Source: Baffinella frigidus (taxonomy: Eukaryota; Cryptophyceae; Cryptomonadales; Baffinellaceae). Taken from it: 24,130 nt of DNA. Positions 1-24,049 of this stretch are shown piece after piece. The stretch covers positions 414,989-439,118 of the forward strand of contig MU646416.1 of the NCBI GenBank assembly GCA_026770585.1. Direction: 5' to 3'. The position numbers were made by a program, and so were the translations under genes. The notes beneath the pieces were generated by a model. The model ran no database searches. It was not told where the DNA came from and saw only the letters and a program-made list of their open reading frames with translations. Numbering within the stretch: position 1 is the stretch's first letter; every line of letters starts with the position of its first letter.

Positions 1-94
1 CGTAAGTCCTGCCCGGGCTGCGTTCCTTCTTCAGGACTACCGTCCACGCGACGGCATCAACACACTCACCAACCCGCGGGAATGATGCACACAC

Positions 95-992
95 CTGTAT
101 AGAGAAGCAGCGCCAGGATCTCTTCTTTCCGAAGCCCAGCCTTCTGCGCCAAGTCGTCCAGCAGGAGGTCCTCGATCCATCGCACTCGCCGCTTGCCCTC
201 CGACACCCGCCTCCCCTCCGCCTCGTCTGTCACCACCCGCCACTCCGCCGCCGCCGTCGTCGTCGTGTCGTAGTTGCCCGGCGAGAAGGCCACCTTCGAG
301 TCCCCGCTCGTGCAGTGCTCCCGCTTCATCGCCTCCATGAGGCGCGGGTCAGGCAGGCCAATCGCCTCCACCAGGCCCTTGCTGAAATCATCGAGCTTGC
401 CGTACACTGCCGTCCTGAGCTCCACCTCCCCTCCCTGCGCGAACTTGGCGTTCCCCTGCCCCCCGCTCTTGTCCCCGTCTCCCCACCCCCTCGCCTCCCG
501 CAGCGTCTCTTGCTGCAGCCTCAGCAACTTCTCGACCTCCGCCGCCACGCTCGTCCTGCAGAAGTGCCGCAGCTCCTCTCCGTTCATGCCCTCCAGGTGC
601 GCCAGCGGCTGCTCCGGCGAACCCCCGGGAAGAAGCTCCGCCACGGCCCGAGCCACGTTGAACCCCGAAAGCGCCTGCTCCTTGCGCGTCACCTCCAACT
701 CCCTCGCGATCCCGGCATCAAACTGATCTAGTGTCATCGAGTCCTCGAACAGCGCCTCCGCCCGCAGCCCGAACTCCACGTACATCTCGCTGAGCAGGCC
801 GCTCGCCTTGGACAACTCCTTCTTGTCGACCGTGCCGTCCTTGTTCTGGTCCATCTGGTCAAACAGCTCCCGCAGCTTGGCACGGAGCTCCTTCGTGGTA
901 TCCCAGCTTCCACCAGCTTTCGCCGCTGCCCCACGCACTGTCGGTGCCGATGCTGCCGGGGCAAGCGCCGCGTTGGACTGCCCGCAGCCCAT
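95..992 (-). CDS. EF-hand protein with N-terminal acylation motif, 3' end missing (spliced out of window); possible ADP-ribosyltransferase-like C-terminal domain
   Basis: Seen: an open frame starting at ATG 990-992 in a strong context (G at -3 and +4), giving MGCGQS at the N terminus. An in-frame ATG at 1047-1049 would bury this motif, so I chose the inner start. Known: Gly2 followed by Cys3 is the classic N-myristoylation/palmitoylation signal, so the product is probably membrane-anchored. Residues about 42-53 (DQNKDGTVDKKE) form a complete 12-residue EF-hand loop, expected to bind calcium; I see only one. A helical Arg/Lys/Glu-rich region follows. The frame would stop at 66-68, but TATACAG/GTGTGTGC at 95/94 is a good splice donor and falls inside LLLYTG. 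Inference: this resembles the start of the Y-T-G-x-x-Y/F...N motif of arginine ADP-ribosyltransferase-like proteins, the rest lying on the next exon beyond position 1. Gene reality is likely; the ART assignment is weak. Confidence 0.7.
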
Positions 993-1364
993 CGCAGCTT
1001 GGTGAGAAGCAGTAGGTACGCCGAAGTTTGCCTGCGGAGAATCGTGCACCTAAGCCCTGCCCCCCTGCGCGTCACCCGTGGCATCAGTGCACCCTTGCGA
1101 CCGGGCAAGGCATGCTCGCATCCTGTGCCCTTTAGGTTCGCCTTTGCCCCCTCGATCCCCTCGGGGATCACACGCAGCCCTTGGCAGGGGCAAGTTGGGG
1201 GGCCTGACGCAGCGAGGTGCATCCTCTCCCTGTTCGCGGGCGGCGAACCTGGTGCGGCGGGACGCTGGGACGCAGGGAAGCCGGAGGCGCGGCGGACCGA
1301 CGCGCGGACTGACAGGTGGACGTGGTATTCCTAAGTAACAGTTCCTTGGAGGAATTTGCCCCTT
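993..1364. other. 5' flank of the EF-hand gene, no recognisable element
   Basis: GC-rich sequence upstream of the minus-strand EF-hand gene. It should hold its 5' UTR and promoter, but I see no convincing TATA box, initiator or other motif. Short open frames on both strands here have no recognisable domain and read as chance ORFs in GC-rich DNA. Confidence 0.4.
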
Positions 1365-3701: not shown

Positions 3702-4125
3702 ACACCCTAAACCATGAACCCTGAATCCTGAACCCTGAACCCTAAACCCTAAACCCTAAACACTGAACCCTAAACCCTGAACCCTAGACCCTAAAACCTG
3801 AACCCTAAACCCTAACCTCCAGACCCTAAACCCTAGACCCTACCCCCTACACCATAAATCCTAAACCCTAAACCCTAAACCCAAACCCTTAACCCTAAAC
3901 CCTAAACCCTAAACCCTAAACCCTAAACCCTGAACCCTGAACCCTGAACCCTAAACCCTAATCCCAAACCCCTAAACCCTGAACCCTCGGACCTAAACCC
4001 TAAACCCTAAACCCTAAGCCCTCAACCCTAAACCCCAAACCCTAAACCCTAAACCCTAAACCCCAAACCCTAAACCCTAAACCCTGAACCGTAAATCCTG
4101 AACCTTAAATCGTGAACCGTAACTT
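3702..4125 (+). repeat. Interstitial telomere-like tract (CCCTAAA and variants)
   Basis: About 420 bp of heptamers: CCCTAAA is the main form, with CCCTGAA, CCCTAGA and some 6- or 8-base slips. CCCTAAA is the C-rich strand of the plant/alveolate/algal telomere repeat TTTAGGG. The decay toward both ends and the sequence on both sides show an internal tract and not a chromosome end. Confidence 0.9.
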
Positions 4126-4962: not shown

Positions 4963-5395
4963 GCCCTTACCCCTACACCCTACACCCTACACCCAAAACT
5001 CTAAACTCTAAACCCTAAACCCTGAACCCTAAACCCTAAATCTCGACTCGAAACCTTAAACCCTTTACTCCTCATCCCTGAACCCTCCACCCCAAACCCT
5101 AAACCCTACGCCTTGAGCCCTAAACCCTAAACAATAAACCCTAAACAATAAACCCTACACCCAAAACCCTCAACCCTACACCCTCAACCCTCAACCCTCA
5201 ACCCTAAATCCTAAACCCTAAACCTTAAACCCTAAACCCCAAAGCCTATCCCCTAAACCCTACACTCTAGACCTTAAACTTCAAACCCTCAACCACACAC
5301 CCTATACCCTTCACCCTACACCCTAAACCCTAAACCCTAAACCTGAAACCCGAAACCCTCGAGCCCCAAACCCAGAACCCTAAACAGGGGCGCAG
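4963..5395 (+). repeat. Interstitial telomere-like tract
   Basis: About 430 bp of degenerate heptamers (CCCTAAA, CCCTACA, CCCTCAA, CCTTAAA). It is more decayed than the tract at 3.7 kb and ends at CAGGGGCGCAGGACGGAG. A very similar junction (GGGGGCCCAGGACGGAG) is found beside another tract at 9893-9910. Confidence 0.88.
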
Positions 5396-9074: not shown

Positions 9075-9285
9075 TCAACTCTCAACCCTTGATCCCACAA
9101 CCCCTGATCCCTCAACCCTCAACCCTAAACCCTGAAGCTTTAGCGCTAAACCCTGAACCTTGAACCTGGAACCCTACACCCTGAACCCTAAACCCCAAAC
9201 CCTAAACCGCAAACCGCAAACCGCAAACCGCGACCCGCAACCCCCAAATAATCAACCCTAAACCCTAAACCCTAAACCCTAAGCC

Positions 9286-9338
<53 letters not shown>

Positions 9339-9570
9339 ACCCTAAACCCTAAACCCTAACCCCGAACTCCTAAACCCTGAAAACCTCAACCCTCAACAGT
9401 AAAATCTAAAATCTTCTAAAATCTACACCCCAAACCCTAAAACCCAAACCCTTAACCCTAATCCCTTACCTCTAAACCCCATCGCCTGAACCGTAAAGAA
9501 CCCTCATCCGAAACCCGAAACCTGAAACCCAAAACCCTTGTGCGGTAGCAGCCTTGATACCCAAAACCCT
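9075..9570 (+). repeat. Interstitial telomere-like tract
   Basis: CCCTAAA alternates with blocks of homogenised variants: CCCTCAA repeated about nine times near 9285-9345, and AACCGC-type units at 9205-9240. Blocks of identical variants point to local tandem expansion after degeneration. The left junction is GAAGAGCCACCAGGTTTCCC, nearly repeated at the junction of the tract at 9.95 kb. Confidence 0.9.
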
Positions 9571-9744
9571 CAACCCTAACCCTGAAACAGTCAAGATTCC
9601 GAAACAGAAAAGATTTCGAAATGCCTGTTTGGAGTTTCGGGTTTGGGGTTTGGGTTTAGGTCTGTAGGTTGAGAGAGGAAAGGGTGAGGAACTCTTTGGG
9701 AAGACGTGCTAAGAAAATGGGTCCGGAACCCATTTCCTCGCAAC
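9571..9744. other. Spacer between telomere-like tracts with a short inverted block
   Basis: At 9635-9668 the heptamers run in the opposite sense (GGGTTTGGGGTTTGGG), unlike all neighbouring tracts. A hairpin AAATGGGT/ACCCATTT with a CCGGA loop lies at 9715-9735. No gene seen. Confidence 0.5.
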
Positions 9745-9836
9745 CCTCATCACTCAACCCTCGAGCCTCAACCAAATAACCTGAACCTTCAACCCTAAAC
9801 CCTAATACCTCAACCCTTCACCCTATATCCTCAACC

Positions 9837-9889
<53 letters not shown>

Positions 9890-9902
9890 ACGGGGGCCCA
9901 GG
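9745..9902 (+). repeat. Interstitial telomere-like tract, mainly CCCTCAA
   Basis: About 150 bp, the last part an almost pure run of CCCTCAA. It stops sharply at GGGGGCCCAGGACGGAG. Confidence 0.85.
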
Positions 9903-9924
9903 ACGGAGCGAATGCCTGCTCCGA

Positions 9925-10318
9925 AGAAGAGCCCCCAGGTTTCCCCCTCAACCACAAACCCTAAACTCTAAACCCTAAACCCTGAAGCCTGAACCACAAA
10001 CCCTATACCCTGGGTCCCCAAACCCCATAACCCCTGAACGACAAACCCTCAAGTCAAAAACCCAAACACCAACGCCTAAATCCTAAACAACCCTCACCCA
10101 AACCCCGAAACCCTGAACCCCAACCCCAAACCCAACCCCCAAAACCCTGAACTCTGAACCCTGAACCCTGAACCCTGAAGCCTGAAGCCTGAAGCCTGAA
10201 GCCTGAAGCCTGAACTCTAAACCCTCAACTCTAAACCCTAAACTCCACCCTCAACCTTCAACCCTCAATCCTCAAACCTCAACCCTCAACCCTCAACCCT
10301 CAACCTCAACAACCTCAT
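9925..10318 (+). repeat. Interstitial telomere-like tract with GCCTGAA subarray
   Basis: Begins after GAAGAGCCCCCAGGTTTCCC. It contains CCCTAAA, CCCTGAA and CCCTCAA forms and a six-copy run of (AA)GCCTG at about 10165-10215. It is the last tract in this orientation before the large minus-strand gene. Confidence 0.87.
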
Positions 10319-10872: not shown

Positions 10873-10968
10873 CTAGGACATGTGGACCCACTCGCGCGCG
10901 ACCTCGCGCTGGATCGCCCGGCCAAACTCGACGGCTTGGTCCTGATCCGCGCAGTTCGACAGGTCCAC
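10873..10968 (-). CDS. Giant gene, last exon: end of the vWA domain
   Basis: Begins after CTGCTCCGCAG and encodes 31 residues starting VDLSNCADQDQAVEFGRAI, then TAG at 10873-10875. The preceding exon ends in phase 0 (EVAK) and this one opens in phase 0. The amphipathic helical sequence suits the last helix of a vWA fold. Confidence 0.8.
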   Translation of the reverse strand: MDLSNCADQDQAVEFGRAIQREVAREWVHMS

Positions 10969-12448
10969 CTGCGGAGCAGAGGCACGTTACAGGGGTGTCT
11001 CGAACTCAAGAACCCGCACCACCCAGGACCACCGAAGCGACTTTGGTGTTGGCGTGCAGTGGGGTCCAAGGAGGGAGGGGGACGTCTGCGTGAGCTACTG
11101 AACATTTCAGGGAGAGGCGCAGCAGAAACGCGCCCTCAGGTGCATCATGCTGGGGAACGACTCATTCTGCAGCAACGCAGCAGACTCATGTCCCATCCCG
11201 CACGCACGCGCCTATTCTAGAAATTACACACGGTGGAACCATAACCCCTCTCCGCCCGACCCTCCCTCGCCCGAGAGTTCTGACTTAGAAATAGGCCTGC
11301 ACCGATTCCCAACATGAGGTGATCGGGCGAGGAAGGGCTCCGATCCTGTGGTCGAGGGAGGGAGGGGACCGACCTTAGCAACCTCGAAGCCATGCGTGTC
11401 TCTGAGCCGCTGGTTGATGACGTCGAGCATGGACTCCGTGTGCGGCGTGACAACAATGAACTTGACCGAGACCTCCAGCCCCATCGTCAGCTTCGCAATC
11501 TGCTCTTCCGGCTTGTCCCCCTTTGGATCGCCTTCCGGAAAGTTATCCGGCAACTGATGGTAATCGTTGCCGTGGCACGGCATGTCAGCGATGATGAAGA
11601 GGTGCCGGTTCTGCGCGCCCCAGCCGAGCGACAGCGCCGCGCGCAGCCCTCCGCACAGGTCCTCTGGCACGTCACAAGTGCGGCCGGAGACGGGCTTCTG
11701 AGACCTGACCATAGATCTGAGCACGGATAAGTCCTTGGTGAAGGGGCACACTTTGACGTCATCCTCGTCGTATTTCAGGCCGGTGGAATCGTAGTCGCGG
11801 TAAGCAACGAAGGCCATGCGCAGCTCGACGTTGCCTCCCCTTCCTTGGAGGCCCTCTGCGATAGTCATCACCTGGTGCGGCGTGTGCAGAATTTGAGGTT
11901 TACGTCAGGTTTGAGGGTTGAAGGTTGAAGGCTTGTGAGGTTCAAGGCTTGTGGTGTAGTGTTACACAATGTAGGGTTTGGGGCTTGGTGGTGCGTAGTT
12001 AAGAGCCCAGGGCCCTGGGTTTAGGGATATAAGACGGGAGTTTCGCCTTTAAGCCTGGGCATCATTGCGTTGGTTTTGTGTGCGGGGGTTGAAGCTCGCA
12101 TGCAGAAAGACCACCATGCAATCGTTCAACCGTTCAATCATGACCTGGTCCTGGCACGCGTCGATGTGGCGCGCCATGCTCCCCGAGCAGTCCATGACGA
12201 AGCAGATGTCGTCCGACGCGGACGTCTCTGCCTCCGGCTCCTGAGGGGTTAGGGTTCAGGGTTTAGGTTTCAGTGTGCAGTGTGCAGTGTGCAGTGTGCA
12301 GGGTTCAGGGTTTATGGTTTATGGTTTAGGGGTCAGGGTTCAGGGTTCAGGGTTCAGGGTTCAGGGTTCAGGGTGCAGGGTTCAGGGTTTATGGTTTAGG
12401 GGTCAGGGTTCAGGGTTCAGGATGCAGGGTTCAGGGGGTTCAGGGGGT

Positions 12449-12488
<40 letters not shown>

Positions 12489-12792
12489 TGTGAGGATTGA
12501 GGATTGAGGGTTGAGGGTTGAGGGTTGAGGGGTCGGGGTCTAGGGTTCAGGGTGCAGGGCTGAGGGTTGAGGGTTGAGGGTTGAGGGTGCAGGGTGCAGG
12601 GTGCAGGGTGCAGGGTTCAGGGTGCAGGGTTCAGGGTTCAGGGGTCAGGATTCAGGGTTCAGGGTTCAGGGTTCAGGGTTCAGGGTTGAGGGTTGAGAGT
12701 TGAGGGTTGAGAGTTGAGGGTTTAGAGTTGAGGGCTGAGGGTGGAGGGTTGAGGGTTGAGGGTTGAGGGTTTAGGGTGGAGGGTTTAGGGTG

Positions 12793-12836
<44 letters not shown>

Positions 12837-15800
12837 TGGTTGAGGGCTGAGGGTTGAGGGTTGAGGTTTGAGGGTTGTGGTTTGAGGTGTGAGGGTTCAG
12901 GGTCCAGGGTCCAGGGTTGAGGATGTACCGGGTGCGCAGCTTCGTTGAATCGCCGCGCTGCCTCCTCCCATTGCTTTTGATCGGTCGCTTCACACGCCTG
13001 GAAAGAGGTAGAGGTGTGCGTCAGAGCGGAGCCTGCACGATCGGACCCCCAATTTGTCTCCGCAGGCTAGTTACCCCAAGGGGGAGGGAGAGAGGAGGGG
13101 TGAGAGAGAGNNNNNNNNNNNNNNNNNNNNNNNNNNNNNNNNNNNNNNNNNNNNNNNNNNNNNNNNNNNNNNNNGAGGAAGACGAGAGAGGATGGAGGAG
13201 AGAGAGAGAGGGTGAGGACGGGGCTGGAGGGACGCGGGCAGAGAGAGGGTAGGGGTTGCCGCGTTCATGTCCTGCTCAACCAGAACCTTCGTGGTGGTGC
13301 GTACCACTCGGAACACTACGGGGAACATGCTAAAGTTAATCATTGGATTGTTTCTAAGGAAACACGCCAAAGGTCATCAATTCTGGTCACGTTATGTCCA
13401 AATATTCCGGGCAAGACGTGCTTCGCAGCCTCCCGAGTGGCATGGGGGCCGTTTTGGTAGTAGTAAAGGTCTCTCATATTTTCGGCGACTCCTGGTGTAG
13501 ATCACGCCTGCGTCGGGCGTGCTGATCCAGCCAAGACGCTACAGGACCACAGCGAAGCGTTGCGCCTAGTCTTATCCGGGGAAACCTATTTTTCTTTCAT
13601 TTGATGGCAATCAAAATGACTACACAGATTCTTTTATATTACTAATAAGAACGAATTGTGTAGCAATTTTCGTTGCCATCAAATGGAAGAAAAATAGGTT
13701 TCCCCGGATAAAGTCAATGGAAGGAAGGGTCCAGGTCCAGGGTCCAGGGTTGAGGTGTCCAGGGTCCAGGGTTATCCAGGGTCCAGGTTCGCTGTGGTCC
13801 TGTAGCTACAGGACCACAGCGAAGCGTTGCGCCTAGTCAATGGAAGGAAGGGGCGGAGCGCGCCTGGAGGGTCGCGTTGTGCCTCGCCATGACTTTCTCG
13901 TGCGCAGCGTCCATCTGCGCCATCCGCTTCTCGTGCGTCGCCGCCCTGTCCGCACGTGTCACCACTCGACGCTAGAAATGTGACTGTTTCAAAACAGGGA
14001 TTCTTTTACAAGTGGAGAGGGGGGAAAGATGTAGTAATTTTCACACATGTAGGGTTGTTTGGCACGTTCCTGGGGGAATTTCCCCAGGGACGTGACCCAG
14101 CCCGCCCGTGCCTGGTGCTAAATTTAACAACCCCACAATTAAAATAGTCCCATTTCTAGCCTCGAGTGGCAGCTGTAGGGCCGAGCTGACTCGCCACGTT
14201 GCTTGTCCGGGGAGCTGAACAAAACTTCCACGACACTTGACTGTTCAGAGGTTTCCCCGGTACTGAACCTGCCCGGTTTAGCTACCTTCCCGGTATAAAA
14301 CCTGCACGGTTCAGTCAACAGCCGCACAGAGGGCTCTCAGCTGCAACTGCACTCGGACAGGTTTGATCGTGCTGTGATCGTTAAGAGGATCCAAGTCAAT
14401 GGCGAGAGGTTCGGGTTCGGGGTGCACCTGCACTGCGCCAGGTACGCGTCCCACGGAAGGTTCTGCGCCGACCACAGCCTCTCAGACGCACCCAGCGGCT
14501 CGAGGTCGTCTTCGAAGATGATCTGGATACGCTTCAGGTTCAGGGCTCTGGGATAGGGGTTCGGGTCTGAGGGTTCGGTAGAGGGGACGCCGCACCAGAG
14601 TTTGTGTTGAGGGTTAAGGGTTTGGGGTTTGGGGTTTAGGGTGCAGGGTTTAGGGTTTAGGGTTTAGGGTGCAGGGTTTAGGGTTTATGGTTTATGGTTT
14701 GGGGTTTGGGGTTTGGGGTTTGGAGTTTGGGGTTTAGGGTTTGGGGTTTAGGGTTTAGGGTTTAGGGTTCAGGGTTTGGGCTTCAGTGTTCATGGTTCAG
14801 GGTTCAGGGTTCAGGGTTTAGGGTTTAGGGTTTAGGGTTTAGGGTTTAGGGTTCAGGGTTCAGGGTTCAGGGTTTAGGATTCAGGGTTTAGGTTTAAGGG
14901 GTTGGGGTTTAGGTTTCAGGGTTTAGGTGTAAGGGGTTGGGGTTTAGGTTTCAGGGTTTGGGGTTTGGGGTTTGGGGTTTGAGGTTTGGGGTTTGGGGTT
15001 TGAGGTTTGGGGTTTGGGGTTTAGGGTTTAGAGGTCTGTGGACCTTGCGCGCGGAGCCTGGGTAATCCTCGCGGCACGTGCGTCCCAAGATCTGCTTCTC
15101 CTCGGAGTCGTCTTCCGGGAAGAACGTGATGATCACGTGCGCTCCTGCGAGTCAGGGACAGCAGGTTATGAACACCCCACCATCTGTTGCAGCGGTGGGA
15201 ACCGTTGATTCGTGGTCCACGGATTAGACCGCGCAGAGGTCAGTGGGCATCTGGGGAGTTCAACGCTTCACGTGAAGCGTTGCCTCGCTTGAATCCATGT
15301 AGCCGTGCGAGTGCGGGCCGACGTTGATAGGATAATGGACTACAAATGGCGTAGTTAGGCCTACGGCATTGCCTAGGACCTCCTATTGTAGGCCAAAATC
15401 CTAGGACTTTTTGGTCATAGGAGCCCTACAGCCTACGGTAGGCAATTCCGTAGGCCTAACTACCCCATTTTTAGTCTGTTAGCCTGTGAACGTGCAGCCA
15501 CAGAGCAGAGACGGGGAAGAGAGGCACCTCCGTCCTTGACGAGGCCTGGATCGTCGCACTTGAAGTCCGTCCCGCGGCCGTAGGCCCTGTGCGCGCATCC
15601 AGCATTAAAGAATGGCCCGAACCTGGGGCCCACACTCACAACCCCTGCGCCGAATCCGAGCTGCCAAACCCCTGCATATCCATGGCGCTAATGGATCAAA
15701 TTGCGCTTCGGCGAAAAGAGTGCAGCTCACAGCTAAGCCCAGCGGGACGCGTCGGACTTGGCGCTGAACCCGCCAGGTTTCGTACCGGGAAGGAGACACA

Positions 15801-18800
15801 CCTTGTCATGAGGGTGATGGTGTACGGTCGGATGGCCTTGATCACCACATTGTTGCGCTTCCCGTTGTCAAGTTCGTCCGTGAGGAGCTGCGGCGCGGCG
15901 TATCTGACAGGGGGGAAGCACCGTTTATCGACAGAACGAGGTGGAGTTAGAATCCATCCGGAAAATGCTCGTATGCGCGGCCGACACGGGGTACAGTAAG
16001 AGGCACAATACGTAGCATCTGCGGCGCTGACGCTGGTTGCTTGGCAATAAATTATCGATCTCTCTCGACAGAAAGGCACCGTGCAGTGCTCACATAGCAA
16101 GACCACGGAAAGATCAGGTTCAGGGCGGGGCGAGCCGTGAGGGCAGGAGCCCGAGTACATCAGGGGGGCATGTGAGAGAAAGACTGCCCGTCACCTAGGG
16201 CAGCAGCCGGTCGATGGCGTCCAAATGCAGGGGCTGGATTTAGAGGAGAGTCCCAGAGTCCCCCGAACGAGTGTTGACTGCACCATGCAGGGTTTCAACC
16301 AGGACCCTACATTCAACCGAGAAGGCTTAGAAAGCAGAATCCTCGACCAAAGAGATCCTGCCAGGTTCAAGGGCAGGGAAGGCGGTCAAAACGAGCACAC
16401 ACACCATCAAAGAGGCTCTTTCGAGTTTGGGAAGGGGGGCTCGAAGAAACCTGGGAAAGTCGACGCCGCCGTATCGATGAAGCTCGTAGTTGTAATCTTG
16501 GAGTCCTTTCAAGTCGGCGAACACCATCAGAACCGCCCTCCCCTCCTTGACAGCTTCCGCCATCTCGTCCTTGAGCGCTAGGAAGTAGTCATCCCGAGTC
16601 CCCCTCACGACCTTGGTCTCCTTCTTCTCGCCTCTGTCGGCGTTGAGCGACTTCTTTCCGAAGAACGTGCTTGGAAGGAAGGTGCGCCGCTCGAAGAAGT
16701 ACTCCTTGAGCAGCGCGTCCTGCTTCTCCGTGAGACAGTCGAGCGTCCCCGTCATTCCGAGCGCAAAGGCATAGAGGCGCGGGATCTCCGAGTAGGACAG
16801 CGCGCCGCAGACCGGAAGCACCCCGATCTTGCTCGAGGACTGCCCCGCTTCCCGGAATGTGGCGGGGGGAAACTTCCCCCGGTCGCACTCGTAGAAGTAG
16901 GTGAAGGCGGTGACGTAGCCGTACGAGAGCTTCTCGGTGGGGACGTGCGTCCTGGGGTCCGTGTACACGATGGTGCCGCGCGCCGCGTCGAGGGTGTACG
17001 CGTCCTCGCCCGACCTGAAGCGAGGCGCTCTGCCGGCAGGGAACTGCGAGACGCTGTCGAGGATCCTGTAGAGCTCGGCCTCGAGCAGAAAGGCAAGGTT
17101 CGGGAACTTGCTCAGGAGCTGTTTCGTGAGCATGTGCTCGCGCAGCACAGCCACGCTCTGCTTCGACTTGCTCAGGCTGCCGCGGCGCTGCCACACGTGC
17201 AAGAGCAGGTTGTACCCAGTAACGGAGCCCCCGTCGGCATCATGCAGGAGCTCACTCGGGAGATATGGCTGGCCGTAGAACGCATCGCTGAAGAACACGT
17301 CTACTTCGTCAAGGAGAAGGACCTTGCGCCGAATCGGTGCTGGAGCCGGAGGGCTCACGACGAGGTTCTTGACAGCCGAAACAAGGCTGTTCAGTGCGTT
17401 GTCTCCGCGGCGGGGCGCGGCGGTATTCCCGCGCAGGAACTGGACGAACTTTTCGCGGATGTTGGGCACATCGGCCCCGCTCTTCAGTATGCTGCTCGAC
17501 AGGCCGTCAAAGTCGGAGTAGGTAACAAAATGCTCGACCCCGAAAAACTGGAAGAGCTGCTTGAATTCTTGGTAGTCGCGCTCAGAGAGGTAGCTGCTGT
17601 AGCACACGACATCGACTGAGAAGCCGAGGAGAGAGAGAAGCACCGCCGTGAAACCCAACGCCACCGACTTTCCCTCCCCGGTGTTGATCTGGATCAGGTG
17701 GTTTCCAAGCGCCGCCTCGTCGAGTCCCATCAGCCGACACACCCCGAGGACCTGCGTGTTGTGCGGCTGCAGCACGCTCTTCCTTTCCTGAAAGTCCCCC
17801 TTCCCGAGGCACGAGAGGTACGTCCACGCGCTCGCGACCAGAGCAAACAGCTGCCCAAACACCAGACAGTGCTGGTTCAGCTCTTCGACGTGCGGAGCCA
17901 GCTTTTTGACGAGGTGTGCCACTCTCTTGCGGAGCGCGTCCTCAGAGTAGTCCTTGAGCCCGTGGACGATTTTGTCCACCTCTGCACTGTACACCTCGTC
18001 ATATGCGCCGAAGACAGTGACGAGGTTGTCGTTGGAGGGACGCGTCGGCATGCACTTCATCTTCTCGAGCGCCGTCGGGAACGTGACGCCGCCAGCCTTG
18101 GCGTTGAACTGCTCAGTCCTGAACGTCTTAAACGCCGGGAACATCGCCAGGATGCCGTTCGCCGCACTCGCCACGCTCGCGTTGCTGTCCTCCGACTTCA
18201 GCTTGATCGCAATGCCCACAAGGTGCTGGCTCTTGCTCTCCATCTGGTTCAGCAGGCCGGTCTCCATCCACTTCTGGTACTGGTCGGTCACTCCCAACTC
18301 CACGGCCACCGCGTACCCCTTGATCAGCATCCTCGCCACCGTCTCTTCCGCACCCGTGGTCATCCCATCAGCACGAGCAATCTCCAACATCTCCTTAGCT
18401 TGAGCCACACACTTCCTGATAGCGCTATCTGCCATCTGTATAAGGTCGTGCATTGCAGCCTCCATCTCGCCAGGGAAACGCTTCTCAAGCAGAGGTGTCA
18501 GCCGCACGAAGTCTTGCACAGCCGTGAAGACCAGGAAAGTTGGGTGCTCAACGCCGCTCTGCAACTCGTCGCCAGCTTGCTTCAGCAGAAAACTGACATG
18601 CCGCGTCGTCTTCGTCTGAATGTTGATGATGTCCAGCGCGACCCAGCCCTCAAGCGCCGGCTTCATCACGCACAGCGTCTCGAGATTCGACAGCAGCTTC
18701 GCGTAGTTCTTAGCTTCGATCAGGTTCTGGATTTCCGAGTCACTCTGCAGCTCGTTGACGCGCGACTTCACCCTGGCCAGCACGTCCACCAGCACGGAAC

Positions 18801-21800
18801 TCCCCTCCCCCACGTGCGTTTGTAGCGCCGTGAGACACCCCACGAGAGCGTCGATGTCGCGCAGGAACTGCTTGTCGTCGAGGATGGCATCGATCCGCTT
18901 CCTGATCGCCTCACGCACAGCCACAACAAAGCAGCTCCGCAGCTCCTCGAGAACGAGGCGCTCTTGCTCTGCCACATCCTGCCTGCGAGCATCCCACCGC
19001 GCCTGCGCTTCCACGCGATGCCCCTCCAAGCCACGGAGAGCATCGTAAAGAGCGTGCTTGTCCTCCATGTACTCTTCCTGCGAGGCAAGCTCCGTCGACA
19101 TGTTAACCCCTTCCCCCAGCTTCAAGCCCCCCCAGTCAATCTTCGCTAGCTTGCCGACCCTGAACTCCTCCAAAAGGCGTTTCTGCTCCGCAACGTGGTG
19201 TTCCACGAGGCGGTCCATGTCATCCTCCTCCGCCTGCGCCCGCTCTCGCTCAGCCACCGTGTGGCAGCCCCGCAGCTCCTCGAGAACGAGGCGCTCTTGC
19301 TCTGCCACATCCTGCCTGCGAGCATCCCATCGCGTCTGCGCTTCCACGCGATGCCCCTCCAAGCCACGGAGATCGGTGTCAAGAGCTTCCTTGGCATCCA
19401 TGTACTCTTTCTGCGAAGCGAGCTCCGCCGACATGTCGACCCCTCCCCCCAGCTCCAAGCGCCCCTCGTCGATCCGCGCCTGAAAGCCGGCCCTGAACTC
19501 CTCCAGCAAGCGTTTCAGCTCCGCAACGTGGTGCTCCACGAGACGGCCCATGTCATCCTCATCCGCCTGCAACTGCTTTTGCTGCGCCTTACTGGCAGCC
19601 ACAACAAAGCAGCGCTGCAGCTCCTCGAGAACGAGGCCCTCCTGTTTTGCCACATCCTGCCTGCGAGCATCCCACCGCGTCTGCGCTTCCACGCGATGGC
19701 CTTCCAAGCCACGGAGAGCATTGTAAAGAGCGTGCTTGTCCTCCATGTACTCTTCCTGCGAGGCAAGCTCCGTCGACATGTTAACCCCTTCCCCCAGCTT
19801 CAAGCCCCCCCCGTCAATCTTCTCAAGCTCGCCGACCCTGAACTCCTCCAGCAAGCTTCCCAGCGCGCCAACGTGGTGTTCCACGAGGCGGTCGATCGAG
19901 TCCTCCACCAGCAGAGCCTCATCTCGCTGGAGCACTGCAAGCATGTCCGGCGCTTGCGGCATCAACATCACGGCCTCCAGCTTGTTCCACAGCGCGCCCA
20001 TGTCGCCAAACGCGCGCAGCCGGTCCTCGACGTTGAGCCCGCAGGCCTCCTCCTTGAGCAGCGCAAGCAGGTTCCCGCCAAGCCACTGCTTGAAGGCCGC
20101 GTGCTGCGCCCTGATCTCCGACGCCGTTTGAGTCATCAGGCGCATTTCTTTCAGCTCGAGGACGCAGCCGCCGACAACCTGCCGGTACTCCCCCTGGACC
20201 ATGAGGCGGCACTGCTCCACGACCGACTGCAAGTGGTCGTCGAAAATGTAACGCGGCTCTGCGGCGCGGCTCTGCACAAGGTCCTGAAGAGTGTTGAGAA
20301 ACTCCAGCATCGTTGTCCTGGAAGGCTCCGGCGCGAAGCGAAGCTCGCCGTCGTCATCCGGCATGTACTCGAAGAGGAGCCCCTGCTGCTCCATCATTTC
20401 CTGCTGCACACAGACGCTGACCTCAGCCGTGAACTGCGGGAGGATCTCGTCGAAACCGACCATGATCTGGACTTTCTCACGACTCTGCGCCTGCGACTCC
20501 AAGTCGCGAACGAGTTTCGCGAGGCCAGTCAAGAAACTTGCGTCGGAATAGATGCTCCCCACCATCGCTTCCGGCAAAGCCTGCGCCCGCTGGAGAAGAG
20601 AGAGGCTGTCCCGGATCTTGCCACGACGGTCCTGCGAAAAAAAGTTCTTGTTCTCATGCACCACCCTGTCCCAGCTGCCCAGGACCGTTTGGACGGTGGC
20701 AAGGATCCCATCGAAGCACTGCGTCAGCGTCTCATGCTGAATGACCTTGAGCGACTGGCAAACGTCGAACAGCGTTTCCGCCTCGGAGAAATCCCCTCCG
20801 CGCATGCTGGCGGCAATCTGACGCGAAGCGAACTCAGCTAAGTTGCGCACGAACAACTGATCTTCGGCTTTCAGCGGAGTCCCAAACGCAGCCTGCCCCT
20901 GCCTCATCGCCTCCAATTGCATCAAACGAAACATAAGCTCCTCCCCGCCGACCGTGTTTTGGAAGCGTCCTGTCGGATCGAAGTCCAGAACGTGCTCTTG
21001 AAACCCGGCGATGGAAATTCCGTGTTCTCCGAAAGCTTTCGCTACGTTCTTCACGAGCGTCGGAAGCGCCCAGTTGCCGCTGGACTTGGTGACGCAGAAG
21101 ACCACGCTCGGCAAACACGCCACCAGATTCTCTTTGTCGACAAAGAGTTGCTCCATCACTTTGACGGTTTCGCGCACGCCATCCCCACGACCAGAACGAA
21201 TGGATGAGGCGTCCACGACAACCACCACGACCAGCCCCCCTGCCTGCGAGGTAGCGAGGAGCTTGCAGAGGTTCACGGCGTTGGCGATGTTGACCTCCGA
21301 ACCCTTGGTGTCGCCGAACCCCGGCGCATCCCACACGACCGCGTCTTCCGAGCCGATGTCAATCGGGCGCAGCACCGCCGTCATGGATTCGGACCCGTGG
21401 CCGATTTCCGTGACAGGCTCCCGGGGCCCGCCCTCGGCGGGCGTTTGCACGCGCAGCGCATTCCGGTCCAGGTCATCTTTGTCCGCCTCCTCCTGGGTGA
21501 GCATCACGATGCTGCACCCGGCGAGCGAGTTGACGAGCGTGCTCTTGCCGCTGCCCGTCACCCCGAGCACCACAACCTGCCGCTTGTTCGCATCCCCCTC
21601 CCCGGTCGCCGCGCCCCGCTCAACATACTCCAAGATCTTCTTCGCGCTGATCAGGATGTCGGCGTCCGGCCCCGAGAGAGTGTCCCCGACGCGGATCTCA
21701 ACTTCCACGGCTGACGCGAGGGCAGATGCGAGGGCGGCAGCGAGGTCAGGCGATTCGCTACGCTGCGTGTCGCCCGCCGCGTCGGAGCTCAGCGAGGCAG

Positions 21801-23433
21801 GCGCCTGATGCTGCGTTGCACCGAGAGCCGTCGCACGCTCAGGATGTTCCATACTGTCCCCAGACGGCGGCGGCTGGTCGCTCTCGGAGACGCCCACTGC
21901 AGGAACCCCCCCCCCCTCCAGTGCAGTCGAGTTGTCCGGCACTCCCGCGTCTCCCACCCCACCGACCTGCTCCGACCCAAACGCTGCCACCTCCACCCCC
22001 ACCCTCTGCTCTTGCTCGACCATGAGCTGCCCGGCCTCCTCTTCGCTCGCAGGCCTCGAGATCTCCTCCCACCCCGACGAACCCCCAGTATCCTCACCGG
22101 CCGGGGAGCCCTGCGGGACAGCAGAGCGTGCGCCCCCTCCCTCTCGCTCAACGACGACGGGCGTCTCATCATCACCCTCGACGTCCGCAGGCGTGGCGCC
22201 ATCCTTCGCCAGCGGCTGGGCGTGCTGGAAGAAGCTGCCCCCACCCCCTCCCGTCGAGAACAAGGAGCTTCCTGCACCGCACAGGCTCGCGGACGGCGCG
22301 ACGGAGGAAGGCTGCGCCGGAGTCATGAAGGTCTCCTCGATTTGGTCCGGCTGCCGGAGCTGGTCGCCGCGGCCTTGAACTTGCAGACGCGGAGTCGCAT
22401 CGACCAGAACGTCGATCTGAGGCAGGGACGCAGATTAGTTGAAGTCGGCATCCAGCCAATCAGGACACGAGGTCCGTGCAGGGCAGGACTCGCATTCCCG
22501 ATGCTTGCACCCCAAAGTCTGTGCAATTGTGCATGCAACAGTCGAGTACACCGAGGGCTCTCATCGAGAATCGACGTACCGAAACCCTCCTACGCAACCA
22601 TACAACGCAACCTATGTGCTCCGGCCTCACCTCGCTGGAGAAAGCGTGCTCTCCTTGCCCGAGCTGTGCGGGCGCATCCTCCTGACCGGCGGAGCCAGCC
22701 GCTACCTCCAAGGACCTCCGAGGAGAATGCAGTGCCGGCGACGGATCGGCGGCGTTGCTCTCCTCCCGTCGCGCCGGCACCCGCACACCTTCCTGGTCTT
22801 GTTCCGAGCTGCTCTGCGAAACGCGCGAGACGCAAGGCTCCGCCGCACCCTCGATCCCTTGGTCGTGATCCGCTTCGAAATCGACGGAGCTGCACGCAGA
22901 TGTCCTCCGATCATGCGGGACGGGCGCGCCATCGATCCCGAGGTTCGAGGAGGACACGGAGACGTCATCGTCATCTGGTTCATCCTCTCCCGTGAGATCG
23001 ATCACGGCAGCGTCGAAGCCAGCGCGTGCCTCAGTGGCGGCGGGTGTCTCGTCGCCACCCTCAATCTCCTCCGCAGGCGTCTTGCCATCCTGGGCGTGCG
23101 CGGGCACGCTCTCCCCACCCCCTCCCGTCGCAAACAAGGAGCCCCCCCCGCCTTCACCCGTCGCACCCGTCGCACTCGTCGCGCTCGTCGCTGCGAGAAA
23201 CGGGGGCAGGGAGGAGGCAGCACTCGAGGCAGCGGGCGACCACACCGACGACGAGGCGGAGGAAGGCCGCGGCGGAGTCATCAGGATTTCATCGAAGTCC
23301 GGCCGCCGGATCGGGCTCTCGCGGAAGCCTTGAGCTTGCACCAGCGAGTTGGCCTCCTCGACCCACAGGTGGATCTGCGCCAGGGATGCACATCAGTTCG
23401 GGACGGCGCCCTCTATCTCTCTCTCTTAACATC

Positions 23434-23464
<31 letters not shown>

Positions 23465-24049
23465 CAGCTATTCAGTAAGGAAACGAGTTCTAAACTGCAG
23501 ACACAGACCGCAACACCGTAGAATTTGCAGGAAGGCACTCGCATTCTCCTCGCAGGCATCGTGAAATTTCGGGCAATTGCACAGCCAGCAATCAGACCTA
23601 GGGCGCTCAGCACCAAACACTAAACACGCCCCAACGTCCTCCTACACAACCCCGCAACGCACGCCACGTGCCCCGCCTGGAGAAGGCTGTGTCGGGAGAA
23701 GGCTTGAGGGGTGAGATACCTGTTTGGAGAAGGATCGCTGCCCGAGACCCGCGGGCGAATCCTCCTGAGCGCCATCCTCGGCGGCGAATCCGGCTCCCTC
23801 CGTAACGATCTCCTCAACGAAAGGCTGCTTGACTGGGGAGCAGGTACGCAGAGCCTCCTTGAGCCGCGCGTTTTCCTCCTTGACTTTCTCCACCTCCCGC
23901 GCGTTGTCGTCCTGGGCGTCCTTGAGCCGTTGGATCTCTTCGTGCGCGATGCTCAGGTTGGCTTTGATCTCAGCGATCTCGCGGGTCGCCTTCTGGAGGT
24001 GCTCGTCCAGCTCTTCTGTCTCCTGGGCTGTCTGCTCGAGCTCCTCCTC
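10873..24049 (-). CDS. Giant multidomain gene: coiled coil / AIG1-like GTPase / coiled-coil repeats / SecA-type ATPase / vWA domain (12 exons seen, 5' end off window)
   Basis: Exons (minus strand, 5' to 3'): 24049-23720, 23374-22631, 22416-16451, 15903-15802, 15586-15528, 15144-15044, 14522-14428, 13945-13864, 12997-12929, 12240-12145, 11871-11374, 10968-10873. Phases match at every junction, for 8,238 nt or 2,745 residues plus TAG. Product numbering: coiled coil 1-85; linkers to about 590; GTPase about 635-870 (P-loop 643-651); helical region with triplicated repeat about 1196-1530; SecA motor about 1900-2466 (GEGKS 1938, DEVD 2061, MTGT 2246, GRGTD 2384, GRTCRE 2421); coiled coil to 2516; vWA 2517-2745 (DCSGS 2533). 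All introns are GT-AG except one GC-AG. Known: SecA motors thread polypeptides; AIG1/TOC GTPases act at membranes; vWA domains bind partners through a metal ion. Inference: a cytoplasmic or membrane-linked remodelling machine. No signal or transmembrane segment was noticed. Function unknown. Confidence 0.85.
11374..11871 (-). CDS. Giant gene, exon 11: core of the vWA domain
   Basis: 166 codons between CCGCACCAG/GTGATG and GCTAAG/GTCGGT. Family signatures are clear: ELRMAFVAYRDYD, CDVPEDLCGGLRAAL and LFIIADMPCHGNDYH. These match the vWA type found in alpha-kinase VwkA-like proteins of protists (RVAFVGYRD, EDxxGGL, IADAPCHG). The frame runs on past the donor to a stop at 11224, but that tail (GEGGSGGEGLW) is intronic in character. 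Confidence 0.93.
12145..12240 (-). CDS. Giant gene, exon 10: MIDAS strand of the vWA domain
   Basis: 32 codons, phase 0 at both ends, beginning EPEAETSASDD and containing ICFVMDCSGSMARHID. D-x-S-x-S is the metal-ion-dependent adhesion site at the start of every functional vWA fold. The acceptor (CCCTAACCCCTCAG) is made of telomere-like sequence. The donor is CAG/GTCATG. Confidence 0.92.
12241..12928 (-). repeat. Intron composed almost wholly of telomere-like heptamers
   Basis: 688-nt intron between exons 9 and 10. On the plus strand it is TTCAGGG, TTGAGGG, TTTAGGG and GTGCAGG in homogenised blocks, so the transcript carries the C-rich form. The repeat reaches to within a few bases of both splice sites, and its last unit supplies the pyrimidine tract and AG of the acceptor. 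The CTAAC within CCCTAAC could serve as a branch site. Confidence 0.88.
12929..12997 (-). CDS. Giant gene, exon 9: short coiled-coil linker
   Basis: 23 codons reading ACEATDQKQWEEAARRFNEA then AHP. It is flanked by a good acceptor (CTACCTCTTTCCAG) and a donor CCG/GTACAT, phase 0 at both ends. The charged helical sequence continues the coiled coil of exon 8. Confidence 0.75.
13078..13250 (+). repeat. GA-rich microsatellite with a 64-base gap (13111-13174)
   Basis: Almost pure GA-rich sequence (GGGAGGGAGAGAGG, GAGAGAGAGAG) on both sides of 64 Ns. The gap is likely an assembly failure in the repeat, and its true length is unknown. In the gene's sense strand it is CT-rich. Confidence 0.9.
13572..13711. 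mobile_element. 140-bp MITE with 39-bp TIRs and AGTC target-site duplication
   Basis: Terminal inverted repeats start TTATCCGGGGAAACCTATTT and pair over 39 bp with one mismatch. The core is AT-rich and non-coding. AGTC lies directly at both borders (13568-13571 and 13712-13715) but only once in the paralogous empty site at 13835-13838, which proves insertion with a 4-bp duplication. The source transposase family is not identifiable here. Confidence 0.93.
13788..13823. repeat. 36-bp perfect palindrome
   Basis: TTCGCTGTGGTCCTGTAG is followed with no spacer by its exact reverse complement. The right half is the start of the second duplicated copy, so the duplication breakpoint lies at the palindrome centre. 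Confidence 0.92.
13864..13945 (-). CDS. Giant gene, exon 8: coiled coil with an internal repeat
   Basis: Encodes a completed Arg then AATHEKRMAQMDAAHEKVMA and RHNATLQ, two 11-residue turns of the same helix (HEKRMAQMDAA / HEKVMARHNAT). The acceptor GTGCGGACAG/G was chosen because it alone fits the phase-2 end of exon 7; the more pyrimidine-rich TTTCTAG at 13972 would break the frame. The donor is CAG/GCGCGC, because no GT occurs before the in-frame stop except an earlier GAGAAA/GTCATG. Confidence 0.62.
14252..14310 (-). repeat. Short direct repeat, related to an inverted copy at 15758-15793
   Basis: TTCCCCGGTACTGAACCTG and TTCCCGGTATAAAACCTG stand 36 bp apart, and the opposite strand at 15758-15793 reads TTCCCGGTACGAAACCTGG. 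This is a small dispersed repeat in two introns of the giant gene. Confidence 0.55.
14428..14522 (-). CDS. Giant gene, exon 7: end of the SecA-type second helicase lobe
   Basis: 31 codons plus 2 nt, beginning IIFEDDLEPLGASERLW after CGTATCCAG, with donor TGCAG/GTGCAC. In SecA the segment after motif VI reads F-x-S-L-E-D-D-L, and here IIFEDDL is at the same place. Confidence 0.87.
14588..15034 (-). repeat. Telomere-like tract filling most of an intron
   Basis: About 445 bp of TTTAGGG, TTTGGGG and TTCAGGG on the plus strand (C-rich in the transcript), inside the 521-nt intron 14523-15043. It is the best-preserved TTTAGGG tract of the window. Confidence 0.9.
15044..15144 (-). CDS. Giant gene, exon 6: SecA motif VI
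   Basis: Opens with 2 nt completing Gly, then AHVIITFFPEDDSEEKQILG and RTCREDYPGSARK. This is the SecA-type series GG-hHVI...E...Q-I-x-G-R-x-x-R-x-x-x-P-G-S. Canonical SecA has RQG where this has RED, so the arginine is kept and the following Gln is lost. Acceptor CTCGCAG; donor AAG/GTCCAC. Confidence 0.92.
15338..15476. mobile_element. 139-bp MITE-like TIR element inside an intron
   Basis: Termini GACTACAAATGGCGTAGTTA and GGCCTACGGCATTGCCTA are mirrored at the right end with 3 mismatches over about 37 bp. The core has CCTAGGAC units. It lies in the 383-nt intron between exons 5 and 6. No clear target duplication was found. Confidence 0.8.
15528..15586 (-). CDS. Giant gene, exon 5: SecA motif V (GRGTD)
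   Basis: Only 59 nt: 1 nt, 19 codons (AYGRGTDFKCDDPGLVKDG), 1 nt. GRGTD is the hallmark motif V of SecA (AGRGTDI). Phases 2 and 1 fit both neighbours exactly, which is strong support for so short an exon. Confidence 0.93.
15802..15903 (-). CDS. Giant gene, exon 4: start of the SecA-type second helicase lobe
   Basis: Reads (R)YAAPQLLTDELDNGKRN then NVVIKAIRPYTITLMT, between CCCCTGTCAG and ACAAG/GTGTGT. This is equivalent to the SecA segment leading to TIATNMAGRGTD. Phase 2 in and phase 2 out match exons 3 and 5. Confidence 0.92.
15904..16450 (-). other. 547-nt intron carrying a dispersed repeat shared with the gene's 3' flank
   Basis: Donor CCCAG/GTTTCT, acceptor CCTGTCAG. About 16090-16310 is related to 10455-10680 downstream of the gene. 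The open frame of exon 3 runs on into this intron to a stop at 16327, which would truncate the SecA fold in mid-lobe. Confidence 0.75.
16451..22416 (-). CDS. Giant gene, exon 3: GTPase, coiled-coil repeats and SecA DEAD motor
   Basis: 5,966 nt, 1,988 codons plus 2 nt, starting ATCGACGTT after CCCTGCCTCAG. In order: Ser/Gly/acidic linker; GTPase with P-loop GVTGSGKST (21564-21538), switch DAPGFGDTKG, and TKSSGN where the TKxD motif is expected; a large helical region; three coiled-coil repeats (19905-18905); more helices; then a SecA DEAD motor with INTGEGKS (17679 region), DEVD (17310-17299) and MTGT (16755-16744), ending in VLMVFADLKGLQDYNYELHR. The nucleotide-binding lobe resembles SecA_DEAD. 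The stretch between DEVD and MTGT is about 185 residues, shorter than the bacterial preprotein cross-linking region. The ATG at 22324-22326 is internal, since the frame is open and homologous to exon 2 upstream of it. Confidence 0.95.
18905..19905 (-). repeat. Three tandem coiled-coil repeats (105-116 codons each) within exon 3
   Basis: Units 19905-19557, 19556-19221 and 19220-18905 each contain RLVEHHV, LLEEFR, GEGVNMSTELASQ or variant, EYM-K-AL, LRGLEGHRVEAQTRWDARRQ and LVLEELR. They are near-identical in DNA over long blocks. All three keep frame, so they are functional protein repeats of recent origin. Confidence 0.93.
22417..22630 (-). other. 214-nt intron, paralogous to the upstream intron
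   Basis: GTGAGG donor and CCTGCCTCAG acceptor. It shares GTGCGTTG/GGTTGCGTAGGAGG-type sequence, GAATGCGAGT and CTGC near its middle with the intron at 23375-23719. Confidence 0.7.
22631..23374 (-). CDS. Giant gene, exon 2: disordered linker with SUMO-interaction-like motif
   Basis: 248 codons, phase 0 at both ends, starting IHLWVEEANSLVQAQG. It is low-complexity Ser/Ala/Gly, then acidic. DAAVIDLTGEDEPDDDD (about 23014-22964) is a textbook SUMO-interacting motif: hydrophobic core VIDLT next to an acidic stretch. The beginning (LMTPPRPSS, SLFATGGGG, HAQDGKTPAEEIEGGDETP) is a diverged copy of the beginning of exon 3. Ends HAFSSE with a consensus donor GAG/GTGAGG. Confidence 0.87.
23375..23719 (-). 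other. 345-nt intron with a TA microsatellite
   Basis: Donor CAG/GTATCT, acceptor CCCTGGCGCAG. A TATATATATATA run lies at 23431-23463, near the 3' end of the intron. The rest is related to the next intron downstream. Confidence 0.75.
23720..24049 (-). CDS. Giant gene, exon 1 of those visible: coiled coil
   Basis: 110 codons after CGTGCACAG. Long heptad-rich helix (EEELEQTAQETEELDEHLQK, later EVEKVKEENARLKEALR), then a linker PFVEEIVTEGAG and EDSPAGLGQRSFSKQ at the donor. That last piece is paralogous to the end of exon 2 (EDAPAQLGQGEHAFSSE). No start codon is visible in frame, so the gene continues to the right. Confidence 0.87.

Follow-up and report, generated by a model that had tools for sequence, protein, structure and literature searches.

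SecA serves bacteria and plastids as an export motor, and GTPases of the GIMAP and Toc type, driven by GTP, assemble with themselves or are recruited to a membrane or a partner. Eukaryotic genes with secA domains were published in 2013 for insects, Tetrahymena and others, and the available part of that paper connects them with exchange involving the intracellular bacteria Wolbachia and Amoebophilus (PMC3639933). SecA-N68, which lacks the helical C-terminal domains, does not catalyze translocation and keeps its ATPase, peptide binding and SecYEG binding, according to the accessible sections of PMC5603524. From the portion of PMC6624252 at hand, Rea1 dislodges assembly factors that are bound via its MIDAS domain, and the vWA and SecA-like domains of other systems are treated in PMC8195603, as far as its available text goes.

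Here, a window of 24,130 nucleotides from the cryptophyte Baffinella frigidus was analyzed (C114:414989-439118, in an assembly of 382 Mb and 1,364 contigs). Its minus strand carries one gene whose product combines a GTPase domain with a SecA-type ATPase core and a vWA domain. An initial annotation, made from the sequence alone, had proposed such a polypeptide, with an AIG1-like GTPase and a SecA-type protein-threading motor, and had regarded SecA as typical of bacteria and plastids; the latter needs correction, given the eukaryotic genes already present in the part of PMC3639933 considered here. We regard the single-gene observation as confirmed, with the two most upstream exons being predicted only. 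Within the open-licence papers searched, no account of the GTPase-SecA-vWA architecture or of its function was found; eukaryotic secA-domain genes as such are already known, and it is this domain order and its function that are undescribed in that literature.

One gene for a GTPase, a SecA-type core and a vWA domain

On the minus strand, 12 in-phase exons running from 24049 to 10873 give 2,745 residues and end with the stop codon TAG (Table 1). The model introns measure 214-866 bases, with an AG acceptor in 11/11 and a GT donor in 10/11, the exception being the GC donor after exon 13864-13945. At the 5' end, the start codon lies upstream of the window, where the next 9,882 bases are N. All eight motifs named in the initial annotation sit in this single joined frame. 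A single exon of 5,966 bases, open over its whole length, encodes the GTPase P-loop together with the first SecA motifs; it holds both the GTPase and the larger part of the SecA core.

The remaining junction, between the SecA core and the vWA domain, is spanned by P0001, a Joint Genome Institute (JGI) protein from an intron-free contig of 3,875 nucleotides, which equals joined residues 1493-2745 (1251/1253 identical, no gap). Since nine introns of the equivalent window range (19014-10873) are absent from its contig, whose type is not stated, we read P0001 as a spliced transcript, and SecA and vWA are thus very likely on one transcript. P0001 extends from the helical region to the final residue; the GTPase is outside its range and is tied to the covered part by the exon that they share. 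A search with residues 1-1200, in which scoring was limited to the 7,990 candidates with the most shared words, returned two distant matches and no transcript of the same species. A transcript end near 16.3 kb, which the initial annotation had named as a sign of two genes, was not seen, as P0001 runs through to 10873, and the proposal of one polypeptide is borne out by P0001 together with the large exon.

Paralogous loci of the same genome bear on the same question. From the large exon on, C301 matches the window gene exon for exon, with order and strand unchanged (64% identical over an alignment of 1,950 columns), and these homologues, together with the match to P0001, indicate that the joined gene is not a product of chance. 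The SecA tail and the MIDAS are encoded by one exon in C301 and are split in the window by an intron in which CCCTAAA-like repeats abound. Introns 12241-12928 and 14523-15043 contain 52 and 41 such 7-mers, and the continuity of the exon in C301 suggests that an intron was gained within a telomere-like array at 12241-12928. C362 encodes the GTPase and SecA parts followed by a stop codon shortly after the SecA tail. A search with the vWA hidden Markov model (HMM) gave no match in the readable 7.1 kb beyond this stop, the following 2.8 kb being N; a weak 42% match to P0001 residues 992-1091, with two stops, is possibly a decayed vWA start. At C291, NBD2 exons are followed by vWA exons on one strand, and the 5.7 kb upstream are N. 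That the GTPase-SecA part and the vWA part are two neighboring genes joined by mistake would agree with C362 stopping before any clear vWA, but P0001 crosses the junction without a gap, which refutes this view for SecA and vWA if P0001 is a transcript, C301 carries both sides in one exon, and relatives with a single open reading frame (ORF) keep the order. With P0001 and C301 standing against it, we give this explanation a negligible chance.

Table 1. Features of the gene, in window positions, with residues of the joined protein
Feature	Position	Strand	Basis
Upstream exon 1, coiled coil, residues 1-110	23720-24049	-	predicted; in phase, AG/GT borders; start codon not reached
Upstream exon 2, low complexity, residues 111-358	22631-23374	-	predicted; in phase; 19-residue end conserved in paralogue C362
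Large exon, from the GTPase through the long helical region, SecA NBD1 and the PPXD-like insert to the first half of NBD2	16451-22416	-	one open frame; P0001 covers from 19014
AIG1/GIMAP/Toc-like GTPase domain, residues 635-839; P-loop GVTGSGKST, residue 643 (21564-21538)	20974-21588	-	local HMM E 3e-67 (family-trained); fold search
Mostly helical region, ~1,065 residues, internal tandem repeat	17779-20973	-	structure model, low confidence in middle
SecA NBD1, residues 1905-2078; Walker A TGEGKS, residue 1937 (17682-17665); DEVD, residue 2061 (17310-17299)	17257-17778	-	Pfam SecA_DEAD partly overlaps; local HMM
Family-specific insert MID at PPXD position, residues 2095-2207	16870-17208	-	local HMM
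SecA NBD2, five exons (16451-16776, 15802-15903, 15528-15586, 15044-15144, 14499-14522); MTGT, residue 2246 (16755-16744); GRGTD, residue 2384 (15579-15565); GRTCRE, residue 2421 (15085-15068)	14499-16776	-	spliced in P0001; local HMM
Exons 14428-14522, 13864-13945 (GC donor) and 12929-12997: NBD2 end and predicted 42-residue helix	12929-14522	-	structure model; splices match P0001
Exon with vWA MIDAS start; DCSGSM, residue 2533 (12192-12175)	12145-12240	-	continuous with preceding exon in paralogue C301
vWA core exon; ADMPCHG, residue 2643 (11589-11569)	11374-11871	-	local HMM E 2.8e-56; integrin- and CMG2-like fold
Last exon, stop TAG	10873-10968	-	84% identical in C301; end of P0001

The domain assignments differ in strength, and the domain folds as well as the long helix between motor and vWA are model predictions. 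The SecA-type ATPase core is supported, with Pfam SecA_DEAD at 57.6 bits (58.5 in P0001; cut-off 24.6), the motifs and alignments to SecA structures in a fold search, which extend over a range including the MID insert, where PF01043 (SecA_PP_bind) is unmatched; P-loop_SecA reached 13.4 of the 27 bits needed in P0001. The description as a protein-threading motor was not supported. Neither SecA_SW (wing/scaffold) nor SecA_PP_bind matched P0001 at E<=10, a scan in which HMMER filters drop most matches above ~0.1 and in which both were found in P0061, and SEC-C gave no match in P0001 either. Only 83 residues separate NBD2 from the vWA domain, which sits where the wing and the two-helix finger would be expected. 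A canonical threading role is thus unlikely, as that region is unrecognizable and the vWA stands in its place; the helix predicted at residues 2458-2499 may be a scaffold remnant. A whole-genome search for SecA_SW yielded nothing, not even at the intron-split plastid-type locus described below, with a control matching in 10/14 genomes, and was not used as evidence.

For the GTPase, an AIG1-like character is suggested by the predicted fold, with GIMAP7 as the best Foldseek match of the model and a Toc34-like fold as well, but the Pfam AIG1 cut-off was not reached (13.0 of 27 bits; 24.3 of 27 in the relative P0007). Its motifs are the P-loop, DAPG and a G4 reading TKSS, and GTP binding is predicted. 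The vWA domain with a MIDAS was corroborated by the DxSxS motif (DCSGSM), the local HMM and the predicted integrin- and CMG2-like fold.

The motor domains are constrained and the helical region is fast-evolving. Ratios of nonsynonymous to synonymous substitution (dN/dS, NG86 with bootstrap) against C301 and C362, respectively, were 0.48 and 0.51 for the GTPase, 0.83 and 0.55 for the helical region, 0.38 and 0.32 for NBD1, 0.47 and 0.42 for the PPXD-like insert, and 0.37 and 0.33 for the NBD2 part, with 0.54 for the vWA against C301. All bootstrap ranges stay under 1 apart from that of the helical region versus C301 (0.69-1.01). A coding tandem repeat lies in this region at 18918-19893 (unit ~333 bases, 2.9 copies).

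Separate exons of a plastid-type SecA are present at C54:595.7-603.4 kb, with a leader containing "...TQCAAFQAP...", which we take to point to a red-type secondary plastid. Given this separate locus and the missing SecA_SW, SecA_PP_bind and SEC-C in P0001, we reject the reading of the window gene as the plastid SecA.

Elsewhere in the window, telomere-like 7-base arrays occur outside the gene at 3704-4109, 4971-5385 and 9075-10305, and an intron holds an inverted repeat at 13572-13711 (55-nucleotide arms, 91% complementary, 30-nucleotide spacing) that resembles a small inverted-repeat element. The downstream ORF 66-1049 (minus strand) matches an EF-hand and contains an internal Met at which the sequence reads MGCGQSN; taking MGCGQSN to be a myristoylation motif, it is possibly a myristoylated calcium-binding protein. 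No Rfam families or tRNAs were found in the window, and a plasmid search with 20000-22000 gave no match.

Relatives in eukaryotes, bacteria and viruses

Protein searches gave 62 matches in a first round and 375 in a second, of which the best 120 were listed and 117 were new, so that 179 proteins were examined, many of them metagenomic and lacking an organism name. The first 62 matches plus the window protein served as training set for the local HMMs, which makes counts on that set circular in part. The order GTPase-NBD1-MID-NBD2-vWA is complete in 116/179 proteins, 19/62 in the first set and 97/117 in the second (best 120 of 375), where the remaining 20 have no GTPase match. Of the remaining proteins in the first set, 15 lack a local vWA match, 10 lack the GTPase and five lack both; 12 have NBD1-NBD2 only and one has vWA only. 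Among the named members with the full order are Adineta, Hydra, Tetrahymena, Brachionus, Blepharisma and Cymbomonas, so that the same order extends to ciliates and a green alga among other protists and also to rotifers and Hydra; entries from Hexamita, Symbiodinium and Reticulomyxa have SecA and vWA without a GTPase match. Within the best 120 of 375, Adineta steineri has at least 15 copies and Hydra vulgaris at least four. A vWA that is always separate, the other finding that would have spoken against the initial annotation, was not observed, the domain being detected in 145/165 family members. Of the 20 without a local match, P0003, P0004, P0038, P0040, P0042 and P0045 carry Pfam VWA; P0009 has 307 residues after NBD2, and the other 13 end at most 119 residues past NBD2, some perhaps being cut. 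Of 165 members, 159-165 retain the ATPase motifs, and among the 131 that bear a GTPase, the G1 pattern is present in 102 and DxPG in 120. Members carry varied extra domains, such as a GBP domain in P0099. P0067, labeled as a gammaproteobacterial metagenome-assembled genome (MAG), has a U-box domain at residues 11-82, N-terminal of the GTPase.

Scanning the genomes of bacteria and archaea returned 56 loci, nine of which have the MID insert; of these, eight have the GTPase and four the vWA (L026, L028, L029 and L030). The full order occurs in 4/56 bacterial loci, from MAGs of Legionellales, other Gammaproteobacteria and Chlamydiae, whose bacteria likely live in host cells, while the titles of MID-bearing loci name MAGs of Legionellales, Gammaproteobacteria, Chlamydiae, Actinomycetota and Margulisiibacteriota. 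The flanks of L027, L028 and L030 match rne, kdsB, himA, acnA, a Bcr/CflA transporter, nhaA, dnaQ and a SpoVR-family gene, and that of L026 one bacterial flavoprotein gene, so that these four copies sit among bacterial genes; binning errors are possible at the other five MID-bearing loci. L023-L025 are at contig ends, where a missing vWA or GTPase says little. Matches without MID include Rickettsiales, Amoebophilaceae, Cardinium and Legionella, and on viral contigs three loci with SecA-like NBDs gave no GTPase, MID or vWA match. The view of a eukaryotic machine therefore holds in part: the gene is in a eukaryote with a separate plastid-type SecA, but the family is also in bacterial MAGs.

For the phylogeny (FastTree, 344 columns, SH-like support only, root chosen at P0060, P0061 and L075), sequences in which the two NBDs were not both present were removed first and 97 more were dropped, all from the second search, leaving 128 of 225 sequences, with C301, C362, C291 and C54 outside the set. 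The MID-bearing sequences form one clade (0.965), which is joined (1.0) by giant SecA-like proteins that come mostly from Legionellales-type bacteria; further giant SecA-like proteins of bacteria diverge between that group and the root. Bacterial copies are found at more than one place inside the MID clade, with some nodes weakly supported, which fits several transfers whose direction is inferred.

Possible function

We tentatively propose, at somewhat less than an even chance, that the protein is a GTP-regulated, ATP-driven machine that grips clients via its vWA and SecA clamp and remodels them without threading them through a membrane channel. On binding GTP, the protein would assemble with itself or be recruited to a membrane or a partner in the manner of GIMAP/Toc GTPases, the MIDAS of the vWA would bind a client, as the Rea1 MIDAS does, and cycling of NBD1/NBD2 would pull the docked client, with the force being passed through the helix that follows NBD2. 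Less firmly, the setting is perhaps cell-autonomous defense or host-microbe interaction, considering the many copies in some lineages, the varied extra domains and the copies in bacteria related to intracellular lineages. The broader proposition is rather doubtful in our estimate: a functionally undescribed class of GTP-gated SecA-type remodelers across many eukaryotic lineages, with a SecA-like core of the kind found in host-cell bacteria, in which a MIDAS head replaced the translocation finger and which acts in cell-autonomous defense and was repeatedly captured by bacteria.

Several points weigh against the proposed remodeler. The local HMMs were trained on the family itself, and the conflict setting is circumstantial. 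The 20/165 members without a local vWA match and C362, which stops before the vWA, imply that vWA docking may not be universal. The G4 pattern [TNSV]KxD is present in only 30/131 GTPase-bearing members (TK in 119/131; TKSS here), and with such a degenerate G4 some family GTPases may be inactive. The helical region has a dN/dS of up to 0.83 (0.69-1.01) against C301. A Sec-linked role may also still apply, since SecA-N68 binds SecYEG, as the accessible text of PMC5603524 reports. This last point also speaks for a translocase of an internal membrane, plastid-associated or ER, in which an AIG1/Toc-like GTPase would be the receptor and the SecA core would thread proteins, as do the pairing of a SecA core with a Toc34-like GTPase fold and the plastid-type SecA of the organism. 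However, SecA_SW is unmatched, and we judge the spacing of 83 residues between NBD2 and vWA too short for wing and finger. Relatives also exist in the plastid-free Hydra, rotifers and, without a GTPase match, Hexamita; overall, we consider such a translocase quite improbable. An unlikely but less remote option is a giant GTPase scaffold like the very large inducible or GIMAP-type GTPases, with the SecA core as a signaling switch, the vWA as an adhesion module and no mechanical work. The GIMAP7 match, the GBP domain in P0099 and the long helical region would agree with it, whereas the conservation of the ATPase motifs across the family alongside a degenerate G4 argues the other way, the ATPase seeming the better-kept engine.

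If the remodeler reading is true, a SecA variant without recognizable threading parts, linked in eukaryotes to both a GTPase and a docking domain, would put this motor to a new use and be a candidate defense or host-microbe system. In that case, automatic names, such as "chloroplast protein-trans..." on Cymbomonas entries, may also mislead.

Comparison with known systems

The secA-domain proteins of PMC3639933 are alike in being long and in occurring in eukaryotes and intracellular bacteria; GTPase and vWA are unmentioned in the available part of that paper, and the comparison is by description, its sequences being outside our tree. AIG1/GIMAP and Toc34 GTPases share GVTGSGKST and DAPG and, going by prediction, perhaps the fold, but the domain described here is below the AIG1 cut-off, has TKSS as G4 and is fused to a motor. 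Rea1/Mdn1, from the portion of the literature at hand, is likewise a giant motor with a client-docking MIDAS domain, there on a flexible tail, although its motor is of AAA+ type instead of a SecA core, and only an analogy is drawn, with no homology claimed. With the SecA preprotein translocase, the protein has in common the NBD1/NBD2 ATPase with TGEGKS, DEVD, MTGT, GRGTD and GRTCR and an insert at the PPXD position. Unlike the translocase, it has no match to SecA_SW, SecA_PP_bind or SEC-C, a GTPase and ~1,000 residues precede its motor, and a vWA domain follows NBD2. Judging from the accessible sections on SecA-N68 (PMC5603524), it is this truncated form, with a vWA domain added, that the protein resembles.

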